Assembly: GCA_021772915.1 (NCBI GenBank)
Contig: JAJFLB010000050.1
Coordinates: forward strand, 1-54,758
DNA: 54,758 bases
Direction of reading: 5' to 3'
Origin: Gammaproteobacteria bacterium
Lineage (GTDB): Bacteria > Pseudomonadota > Gammaproteobacteria > Xanthomonadales > SZUA-36
The position numbers and the translations under genes are program-made. Numbering within the stretch: the first letter of the stretch is position 1; each line of letters starts with the position of its first letter. The notes under the pieces were generated by a model. It did no database searches and was not told the DNA's origin. It saw only the letters and a program-made list of their open reading frames with translations. Below, one piece after another: positions 6,914-22,755 of the stretch.

Positions 6914-7035
6914 ACACCAGCCCGGGTTAGATAGCGCGCTCAGAGACTCGCTGCCAGTACACCCCTGTAGCGCTCTGTCGCCAACGTCCTGTTGGCTCAA
7001 GGTCTCTGACCGCACTATCTAACCCAAGCTGGTGT
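6914..7035. repeat. Long inverted repeat, 34-bp arms
   Basis: Arms at 6914-6947 and 7002-7035 are complementary at 30 of 34 positions and enclose a 54-base loop. It lies between cysG and the Rieske-fusion gene. It resembles in size and layout the two palindromic elements at 21958-22113 and 22180-22336. Like them it has GGGT in the arm and an AGGAC- or AGAGAC-like inner end, but its loop is mostly different. The inverted repeat is directly visible; membership of one family is inference. Confidence 0.7.
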
Positions 7036-20437: not shown

Positions 20438-21937
20438 ATGGCCCATATATATATCTCAGCCGCACGCAAGTCCTCGGGAAAAACCTCTGTCTCAATCGGC
20501 TTGTGCGCCGCATTGGCCCGGCGGGGACTCAAAGTGCAGCCATTCAAAAAGGGCCCTGACTACATCGACCCACTGTGGTTGACCAGGGCCGCCGGCAGGC
20601 CCTGTTACAACCTCGATTTCTTCACCCAGACCAAACCGGAAATCCTGGCGACTTTCGACGCAGGAATGGCCACCGCCGATATCGGATTGATCGAAGGCAA
20701 CAAAGGGCTATTTGATGGTCTTGATGTCGAGGGCACAGACAGTAATGCCGCCTTGGCCACGATATTGTCAGCCCCGGTCGTACTGGTCATTGATACCTGC
20801 GGTATCACCCGTGGTATAGCCCCACTGGTTCGCGGCTACCTGGATTTTGAACCTGGTGTTGAAATATGCGGCGTAATCCTCAACAAGGTCAGCAGTGCAC
20901 GCCATGAAACCAAGCTGCGAAGCGCACTTGAGCGCTATACCGATGCCAACGTACTGGGGATAATTGGACGTGACACGGATCTCGAAATCCCCGAACGCCA
21001 CCTTGGTTTGGTTCCCGCCAATGAGAGCGATGCGGCCGATACCATGATTTTGCGGCTGGCAGACAGCGTTGAGGCGGGTGTTGAACTCGATCAGATCATT
21101 GAAAAAGGGGGTCAGGGCCATAAAAAGGGCAGTCAGAGCACCAAAAAGAGAGACCAGAACGCTGAAAAAGAAGGGCAGAGTAATAAAATGGGTGATAAAG
21201 GCCCTAATATTGATAGTCAGAGCTCTAATAACGTGGATCAGAGCCCATTTTCTAGGAATAAGGGCCCTGATCCCTCTTTTCTACGTATCGCAGTTGCGCG
21301 AGATGCAGCCTTTGGCTTCTACTACCCGGATGACCTCGAGGCTTTTGCGGCTGCAGGCGCAGAGTTGGTTCCATTCGATACCCTCAGTGACAGCCACCTG
21401 CCGGAGGTGGACGGATTGTTTATTGGAGGTGGTTTTCCCGAAACCCACCTCGCAACAATGGCTGCAAATCAAGGCCTGCTCGCAGACATCCGCCGGGTAT
21501 TGGCGGCGGGGTTGCCCGCCTATGCCGAGTGCGGAGGTTTGATGTATCTTGCACGGAGAATCCGCTGGCGCGGTGAATCACAGGCGATGGTGGGGGCGGT
21601 ACCTGCAGATGTCAGCGTCGGCGATAAACCCCAGGGTAGAGGTTACGTACGGTTGGAGGAAACCGGCAACAGCCCATGGCCCCCATCAACTACAGCCGAT
21701 CATTGTAAAACGAGAGAGATTGGGGCACATGAATTCCATTACGCCAAACTGGAGAATCTCGGTGCGAAATCACGCTTTGCCCACCGGGTGCTACGAGGCA
21801 CGGGTATTGACGGTACCCATGACGGTCTGATTATCGGTAACCTCGTGGCGGGTTTTGTACACCACCGCAACACCCGGGCAAACCCGTGGGTAGAGCGATT
21901 TGTAGCCTTTGTTCGAAGTAAAGGGGGTCGGGGTTAA
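20438..21937 (+). CDS. dsrN: DsrN, siroheme amidase (CobB/CbiA-type)
   Basis: A 499-residue amidotransferase related to cobyrinic acid a,c-diamide synthase, thought to amidate siroheme for DsrAB. Seen: an N-terminal ATPase domain with the P-loop region ARKSSGKTSVSIGL and FKKGPDYIDP (residues about 1-215). The C-terminal type-1 glutamine amidotransferase-like domain (about 282-499) has GLFIGGGFPE and the cysteine in AECGGLMYLAR. Between them residues 222-281 form a low-complexity linker rich in Lys, Gln, Ser, Asn and Gly, absent from ordinary CbiA proteins. At DNA level this linker has inverted-repeat ends (see the separate repeat entry). The frame stays open, so the protein is probably functional. 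Confidence 0.93.
   Translation: MAHIYISAARKSSGKTSVSIGLCAALARRGLKVQPFKKGPDYIDPLWLTRAAGRPCYNLDFFTQTKPEILATFDAGMATADIGLIEGNKGLFDGLDVEGTDSNAALATILSAPVVLVIDTCGITRGIAPLVRGYLDFEPGVEICGVILNKVSSARHETKLRSALERYTDANVLGIIGRDTDLEIPERHLGLVPANESDAADTMILRLADSVEAGVELDQIIEKGGQGHKKGSQSTKKRDQNAEKEGQSNKMGDKGPNIDSQSSNNVDQSPFSRNKGPDPSFLRIAVARDAAFGFYYPDDLEAFAAAGAELVPFDTLSDSHLPEVDGLFIGGGFPETHLATMAANQGLLADIRRVLAAGLPAYAECGGLMYLARRIRWRGESQAMVGAVPADVSVGDKPQGRGYVRLEETGNSPWPPSTTADHCKTREIGAHEFHYAKLENLGAKSRFAHRVLRGTGIDGTHDGLIIGNLVAGFVHHRNTRANPWVERFVAFVRSKGGRG
21102..21280. repeat. Repeat-like insertion inside dsrN with inverted ends
   Basis: The 179-base stretch is bounded by 18-base inverted repeats (21102-21119 and 21263-21280) that match at 15 of 18 positions and contain TCAGGGCC. 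Inside are degenerate units of the GGGGTCAGAGT family seen at 1378-1473 and 29480, such as GGCAGTCAGAGC, GGGCAGAGT and GTCAGAGC. It is read as an unstructured linker in DsrN without a stop in the coding frame. The inverted ends and units are visible; insertion as a mobile non-coding repeat is inference. Confidence 0.7.
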
Positions 21938-21957
21938 GGTGGACATGGCTTCGGTAC

Positions 21958-22113
21958 GCCAAGGGAGTGTAGGGTCTTGTCTCAGGACACTTCGTAAACC
22001 CGTCCATGGGGATTCGGTCGCGACTTGGCCCAGGCCAGTTTCTCGACCGGTTCCCGCTCTCACCTTCTCCCTGTCGCTCACGGTCCTGAGACAAGACCCT
22101 ACACTCCCTTGGC
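21958..22113. repeat. Palindromic element A, perfect 31-bp arms
   Basis: Arms at 21958-21988 and 22083-22113 are perfectly complementary over 31 bases with a 94-base loop. The loop contains ACTTGGCCCAGGCCAG, a CTCGACCGGTTCCCG stretch and TCACCTTCTCCCTGTCGCTC. The same three stretches occur in reverse complement in element B, although the arms of A and B have different sequences. It lies directly after dsrN and may also end transcription of the operon. Confidence 0.85.
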
Positions 22114-22179
22114 TGGGACGGGTTGTAATGCATGCCAGATACTTCGATGTCAGTTGGTTCTACGGCCTCACGGACTTAA

Positions 22180-22336
22180 GCTGTGGTGGGTATCTACTGC
22201 CAGGACCGTGAGCGACAGGGAGAAGGTGAAACCGGGAATCGGTTGAGAGGCCGGCCTGGGCCGTCGGGAACCTGTCGAGAGGCTGGCCTGGGCCAAGTGT
22301 TCACAGCGTGTCCTGGCAGTAGATACCCACCACAGC
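22180..22336. repeat. Palindromic element B, perfect 27-bp arms
   Basis: Arms at 22180-22206 and 22310-22336 are perfectly complementary over 27 bases with a 103-base loop. The loop is an inverted relative of the loop of element A and carries an extra duplicated block: GGCCGGCCTGGGCC and GGCTGGCCTGGGCC are near copies. Arm sequence is unrelated to that of A except for a GGGT core and an AGGAC inner end. It lies 68 bases upstream of the rhodanese-like gene. Confidence 0.85.
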
Positions 22337-22404
22337 GACCCTTGGTTGAATTAAGTGGGACAGCAGTGGATCCGACCCCTTTTACTTTTTAGTGGAGAGT
22401 TACC

Positions 22405-22755
22405 ATGATAAAGACCGCCGCCGAGTTTATTACCGAAGCCCAGACACAGATAAACTGTCTGGATGCAGAATCAGCCTGGGCACTCTATAAAGAGTCAGAG
22501 ACTGCGGTCATTATTGATGTGCGCGAGGCCAATAGTGCGGCTGAATCCAAGCTCAAAGACTCCACAAACATCTCCCGTGGTTTGATCGAAATGAAAGTCC
22601 CCAAACTTTGCCCTGATCCGGATGTGTTGATATTGACACATTGCGGTGGCGGTGGCCGTGCGTCACTTGCTGCATTGACACTAAAAAAAATGGGTTACAC
22701 CAATGTCTGCGCCGTTACTGCAAAATTCGATGACTTGAAAAAAATTTTTGGATAA
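22405..22755 (+). CDS. Single-domain rhodanese-like sulfurtransferase
   Basis: A 116-residue rhodanese-fold protein. Seen: the VIIDVREANSAAESKL segment that follows the first helix, and the active-site loop HCGGGGRAS with the catalytic C80. A C-terminal LKKMGYTNVCAVT helix and strand complete the fold. Rhodaneses move sulfane sulfur between thiols, and placement just after the dsr operon suggests a role in feeding sulfur to DsrEFH (inference). The start has GGAGAG about seven bases upstream. It is separated from dsrN by the two palindromic elements, so it probably has its own promoter or read-through control. Confidence 0.85.
   Translation: MIKTAAEFITEAQTQINCLDAESAWALYKESETAVIIDVREANSAAESKLKDSTNISRGLIEMKVPKLCPDPDVLILTHCGGGGRASLAALTLKKMGYTNVCAVTAKFDDLKKIFG

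Follow-up and report, generated by a model that had tools for sequence, protein, structure and literature searches.

Oppositely oriented palindromes in a gammaproteobacterial genome point to a class-wide family of T-shaped hairpins with a predicted dual CsrA/RsmA site

How can two neighboring palindromes share parts of their loops and yet have arms that are unrelated in sequence and perfectly self-complementary? The question is raised by two elements, A and B, in the window analyzed here, a stretch of 54,758 nucleotides that makes up contig 45 in a draft genome of 71 contigs and 4.68 Mb. They follow DsrO, DsrJ- and DsrP-like frames and a CobB-type amidase, and precede a frame with weak rhodanese matches; DsrO scores above its NCBIfam cut-off and the DsrJ- and DsrP-like frames below theirs. 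Element A (21958–22113) is bounded by P1 arms of 31 nt (21958–21988 and 22083–22113, on the plus strand), and B (22180–22336, plus strand) by arms of 27 nt (22180–22206 and 22310–22336, also plus). Both pairs of arms are 100% complementary, and when the window was shuffled 20 times by mononucleotides, no perfect inverted-repeat arm exceeded 13 nt (gap up to 130 nt). Direct comparison bore out that A and B are oppositely oriented and that their arm sequences are unrelated.

The loop blocks that the sequence-only reading took to be shared do exist, as an inverted 62-nt block matching at 89%, but they comprise two things: a nested insertion and an inner region common to A and B by descent. An exact scan of genome contigs for the loop blocks gave no match; BLAST of positions 21930–22420 gave at least 142 matches in the host genome (in a first look, 40 of 82 candidates scored). 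In the aligned copies, B, a spacer of ~66–70 nt (22114–22179 in the window, no strand assigned) and A repeat as one block in which the spacer is kept, and the nested insertion is the cause of gaps of ~42 nt between copies. Since copies of A and of B without the insertion occur naturally, the loop blocks correspond in part to this insertion. Beneath it, A and B are paralogues, each built from the stem P1, then a short helix, then a pair of small hairpins. The AGGAC inner end ascribed to the arms is real and adjoins the conserved inner region. The sequence-only reading allowed that all copies might share one stem, A or B being an assembly chimera. Instead, the whole A-spacer-B composite was found repeatedly in the host genome, and each of the two stems belongs to a cluster of related ones (18 for A, 13 for B), some members of these clusters coming from genomes of relatives.

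A is a T-shaped hairpin whose GGA strand is probably the minus strand, as the G.U strand asymmetry discussed below suggests. Its P2 hairpin (21999–22010, minus) has the loop ATGGAC on the minus strand, which fits ANGGAN, and its P3 hairpin (22020–22077, minus) has the stem GCGAC/GTCGC and a loop AGGGA-N interrupted, immediately 3' of the GGA, by the 42-nt insertion, or core (22026–22067, minus). B is without the stretch separating the two tips and has a tandem insertion (42+32 nt; 22222–22295, plus) immediately 3' of AGGGA. Both window copies are thus damaged by insertion, and neither need be functional. Among 52 distinct copies of the insertion (in 38 own-genome sources and loci of relatives), the 5' neighbor is GGAG, with G at −1 in 47 copies, A at −2 in 47, G at −3 in 50 and G at −4 in 39. 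By our reading, it follows the P3-loop GGA in A and L082 and the P2-loop GGA in L074 and L088. A and B were later struck by this 42-nt element, which enters ANGGA^N loops. This element, GAAGGTGAG...GGCCTGGGCCA, often has a 32-nt tandem copy and enters beside GGA(G), repeatedly in hairpin loops. Another hairpin repeat of the host genome, GCCCGCATATTTCACCAGTATC... (L091, L095, L098, L102), likewise bears it.

The composite ends in inverted copies of CTGCTGTCCCACWTAATY, both present in 10 composites and one in three (L073, L074 and the window copy), allowing up to four mismatches. In the window, the end repeat lies at 22349–22366 (minus; CTGCTGTCCCACTTAATT on that strand) and the other end is missing. 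The 10 two-ended copies measure 244–452 bp between end repeats. The search for target-site duplications, proposed from the sequence alone, had a mixed outcome: a 9-bp direct repeat lies just outside the ends in two of the 10 composites (L069, AGCTGACCC; L072, GACGAGAGC), and one of 6 bp in two; own flank pairs share a mean of 5.4 nt, compared with 3.8 (maximum 7) for swapped flanks. From the end repeats and the two 9-bp repeats we infer that A and B move together as a miniature element with inverted ends. Some composites (L066, L067, L069, L072) have a GGGGTC-like sequence just outside their ends, for which the published comparison is the GGGGWSAS motif (PMC3733652). The inverted ends are 13–14 nt longer in L066 and in one L069 copy.

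The structure beneath the insertion was defined from a seed pattern requiring TCCNT in the P2 loop and leaving P3 unconstrained. It listed 24 units, 22 of which were aligned (an insertion-bearing match in L047 and a full unit in L070 were omitted). These 22 units have P1, a 4-nt bulge, P1b, P2 and P3, the last two with six-nt loops. Over 30 pairs, 93.9% of the 658 cells are paired, compared with 75.8% after shuffling; the covariation score is 0.499, compared with 0.158 for shuffled and at most 0.122 for slid alignments, and two-sided changes occur at 14 of the 18 P1 pairs. A covariance model, R1, was built from this structure on the strand opposite to the GGA strand; it carries a bias, its seeds having been chosen by TCCNT in P2 and both tips being then weighted by R1. 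P1 has a median length of 28 bp, and units span at least 88 nt. When four intact units were folded as RNA, the P3 loop was exposed in all four; three also formed a hairpin like P2 whose GGA is exposed, which the Xanthomonas one did not. A third, divergent unit lies in the window at 6930–7019 (minus strand, 34.5 bits), flanked by two minus-strand frames and with the loops AGGAC and AGGGG. An Rfam 15 covariance search (window positions 21700–22600 and 10 unit loci, E ≤ 1) yielded no relevant family; over the repeats it matched models of no relation, those of microRNA and other hairpins, with scores far under the gathering threshold.

R1 matched at least 46 places in the host genome (E ≤ 0.01; best 150 of 1227 candidates scored). 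Matches were found in 24 of 41 relatives, that is, in 10 of 10 genomes of the genus (own included), 13 of 15 other family members and one of 16 from the rest of the order; a phylum-level search added G057 of the same order. Class-wide, units occur in 44 of 274 genomes (own included), representing 40 of 222 genera. In a phylum set, 17 of 249 genomes were positive, all of the same class, the proportion of other classes in that set not being given. Among the matches listed (at least 116 stretches), hosts include Xanthomonas, Marinobacter, Microbulbifer, Haliea, Sedimenticola and Stenotrophomonas; of 80 listed loci, 77 were analyzed onward (L217, L227 and L228 were left out). To judge by these genera, the class is Gammaproteobacteria. 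At one intergenic site compared among 15 Xanthomonas genomes, R1 matches 33 times, in 12 of the stretches, and not at all in L356, L359 and L362; L360 has one truncated match at its far end and L354 two weak ones. By this comparison, units come and go at the site, divergence being too high for insertion boundaries. Literature searches by sequence strings on both strands returned nothing relevant, and word searches returned, among the matches listed, no published dispersed ANGGAN repeat; the accessible part of PMC2267715 makes no mention of Xanthomonas. The family of branched hairpins is widespread and apparently undescribed.

The pairing of unrelated arms had been explained beforehand by stem renewal through copying or by strong selection for the structure. 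In stem set A2 (70 units from 50 chosen loci in 21 genomes), 1223 of 1260 P1 cells are Watson–Crick (97%), 21 are G.T (1.7%), five A.C and 11 other, and four pair types occur at most P1 positions. Such near-perfect pairing with saturated pair types is what templated arm renewal would produce, that is, template switching or quasipalindrome correction as the main keeper of the stems, the fold being under little selection or none. Copies within G297, whose heads look much alike by eye and whose stems are strongly different, fit it as well. In G142, G148 and G244, on the other side, stems look related among copies (by eye), which argues against renewal and suggests that stems pass down with the copies instead of being taken anew at every site; an origin of the stems from local target sequence is disfavored for the same reason. 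Most Xanthomonas stems fall into two inherited types, with clusters of 72 and 56. P1b leans in the direction opposite to P1 (70 A2 units: 181 Watson–Crick, 23 A.C, 11 G.T and 64 other), but it is short and its assignment may be wrong.

The kinds of mismatch were then compared between strands. Read on the strand opposite to R1, 204 stems (of 212; eight with helices below 15 bp were dropped) contain 368 G.T, 54 A.C and 183 other cells against 5286 Watson–Crick; G.T exceeds A.C at 75 loci, the reverse holds at 12 and the two are equal at 36. The R1 model, built on the other strand, would favor the reverse bias. Odd pairs are more frequent in the Xanthomonas-rich set (316 G.T, 32 A.C and 149 other against 3245), and outside such sets the asymmetry is weaker (A2: 52 G.T and 22 A.C; within the model, 21 and five). 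To control for descent, 304 of 312 distinct units were clustered by their arms (365 matches, from which edge, N-bearing and duplicate rows were dropped), and event types were counted in the ten clusters with four or more members (188 units). Among one-sided event types, 63 led to G.T and 18 to A.C (p = 5e-7), with 57 leading to other mismatches; when three clusters that repeat the two Xanthomonas types in a shifted register are left out, the counts are 55 and 14 (p = 7e-7). The excess holds in each of the two transition classes (C>T 45 and G>A 15; A>G 18 and T>C 3). This suggests that one strand is under selection for its fold, as RNA or single-stranded DNA. Two-sided event types comprise 67 Watson–Crick, three G.T and 14 other; 30 of the 67 are transversions, with no route through G.U, and these, like the 97% pairing, would suit copying of one arm from the other. 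Copying alone leaves the bias of G.U over A.C on one strand unexplained and predicts no conserved loops, so that the selection part of the earlier proposal is upheld and arm renewal as the whole explanation is quite improbable. The two processes may act together.

The loops suggest what the fold might be for. Both tips fit ANGGAN on the GGA strand in 176 of the 199 normal-length units. Among 274 distinct units, P3 has ANGGAN in 243 (closed by C-G in 238) and P2 in 265 (C-G in 264), and the two GGAs are 20 nt apart in 225 of the 237 units with both loops. The RsmE/CsrA site is described as an ANGGAN hexaloop, with a SELEX consensus RUACARGGAUGU mostly in six-nt loops (PMC7652899, PMC3791407), and a CsrA dimer is reported to bridge sites 10 to 63 nt apart, with an optimum above 18 nt (PMC7652899), a range that includes the spacing in the units. 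CsrA/RsmA binding is thus strongly predicted from the loop motif, its duplication and its spacing. According to the same source, very stable hairpins may disfavor CsrA binding (PMC7652899). For RsmU, changing all four GGAs is reported to leave binding unabolished (PMC7694677), so that GGAs alone are no proof of binding. A CsrA match is present in 40 of the 44 genomes with units and in 195 of the 230 without, and does not discriminate between them; the unit-bearing genomes that lack a match are G068 (75% complete), G128 (88%), G159 (67%) and G254 (98%).

On balance, we lean towards reading A and B as dispersed RNA hairpins with a dual CsrA/RsmA site, belonging to the class-wide T-shaped family. 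In such a unit, the long P1 stem, free in sequence but kept paired, would bear P1b and the conserved two-hairpin head, and the two C-ANGGAN-G tips, with GGAs 20 nt apart on the GGA strand, could be bridged by a CsrA/RsmA dimer. Transcription of the GGA strand, for example by read-through from the end of a neighboring gene, would let the unit fold and dock one dimer, and the folded unit might titrate the regulator, which is a guess, or mark the transcript. Pairing of units in inverted orientation would provide one sense unit whatever the direction of transcription.

The genomic context bears on this reading and on its main rival. Gene neighbors were taken from crude calls of frames of at least 90 aa for 187 unit groups, 44 of which lie within such a frame and 15 at the edge of their stretch. 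The 128 groups with two neighbors are placed between convergent (47), tandem (66) or divergent (15) genes (convergent compared with divergent, p = 6e-5), and single units between tandem genes are co-directional in 13 cases and antisense in 17. Placement at gene ends with no preference for the sense strand weakens a cis-acting role in mRNA. Given that binding is a prediction and that a gene-strand preference is missing, a hairpin mobile at the DNA level, a REP/REPIN-like nonautonomous element of which one strand folds and a transposase recognizes the two loops, stays a serious rival, although we consider it the less likely one. G.T would be better tolerated than A.C in its folding strand. Mobility of this kind would agree with the gene-end preference free of strand bias, with the high copy number (the best 150 of 1633 candidates were scored in one chromosome of Xanthomonas hortorum, and all of them match R1), with the patchy distribution, including the Xanthomonas site matched in 12 of 15 stretches, and with inverted pairs and tandem arrays, as 57 of the 71 groups with several units have their GGA strands in the order (−+)n and 14 differ. 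Unit pairs in tandem arrays reach six units in a row in the Xanthomonas loci L216, L222 and L248.

A linked single-strand transposase, which the sequence-only reading proposed to look for, was not found among the Y1 loci examined. The single Y1 transposase match of the host genome, a RAYT by NCBIfam (L103; G000 C8:93748-94065), is adjoined by GACCAACGAGC...GCTCGTCGGGA repeats unrelated to the units. Y1 matches occur in 13 of 14 further unit-bearing genomes, and none in G297, the genome with very varied stems. Of the 28 Y1 loci (27 from the 13 other genomes and the host RAYT), none has a unit within ~1.5 kb on either side. The Xanthomonas composite was unmatched in 72,556 plasmid and 50,697 phage records and the host composite in plasmid records, the share of records from host genera being uncounted. 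The 61-nt head gave three chance-level partial plasmid matches (E 0.4); phages and E. coli had no match, and a search with the head pattern matched one viral contig. Furthermore, two C-ANGGAN-G loops at a constant distance are not something that DNA-level mobility predicts. In L182, a pair of units separated by 2 kb was considered as a transposon and rejected, as the 607-aa frame between them resembles, by eye, an ordinary cellular ATPase.

The interrupted window copies and the gene-end preference could also suit inert repeat debris or long terminators without a protein partner, which we consider barely credible in view of the covariation, the strand asymmetry and the persistence of loop motif and spacing in many families. 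Going further than the dual-site reading, one may imagine an unrecognized dispersed CsrA/RsmA buffer, with tens to at least 150 strand-specific two-site hairpins per genome, titration by read-through and stems renewed from arm to arm, so that neighboring copies would need no common stem sequence; we hold this extension to be doubtful. If the dual-site reading is true, a dispersed intergenic repeat would be tied to a global post-transcriptional regulator, with a concrete partner named. The units also offer a natural experiment, in which long near-perfect stems stay paired during complete turnover of their sequence.

Among known repeats, REP, BIME and REPIN sequences are, like the units, dispersed extragenic palindromes in inverted doublets, and compensatory changes reported in REPIN spacers add to the likeness (PMC3733652, PMC3116915, PMC2817692). 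REPs are described as ~20–60 bp long and GTAG- or CGTC-tagged (PMC3733652, PMC3116915, PMC2817692), whereas units have at least 88 nt, are branched and were found beside none of the Y1 transposases examined; with flanks read by eye, no common GTAG/CGTC tag was noticed at the unit foot. Bacterial MITEs are given as 70–300 bp (PMC3733652), and the host composite has likewise inverted ends, with the 9-bp flanking direct repeat in two of 10 copies. It differs from them in its 244–452 bp and in the two branched hairpins inside.

Among RNAs, Rfam 15 holds a model of TwoAYGGAY, which, judged by its name, has two hairpins with AYGGAY loops and is hence like the units; it was absent from the Rfam matches (E ≤ 1) at 10 unit loci. 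The taxa listed for TwoAYGGAY include gamma-Proteobacteria (PMC2864571). CsrB, RsmX/Y/Z and RsmU resemble the units in having GGA hairpin loops, several per RNA, with a spacing suited to the dimer (PMC7652899, PMC7694677). These RNAs come from one or few genes and most have more loops, whereas the units have two loops, a long stem of free sequence and a dispersed distribution in tens to at least 150 copies, and, where grouped, lie mostly in inverted groups.
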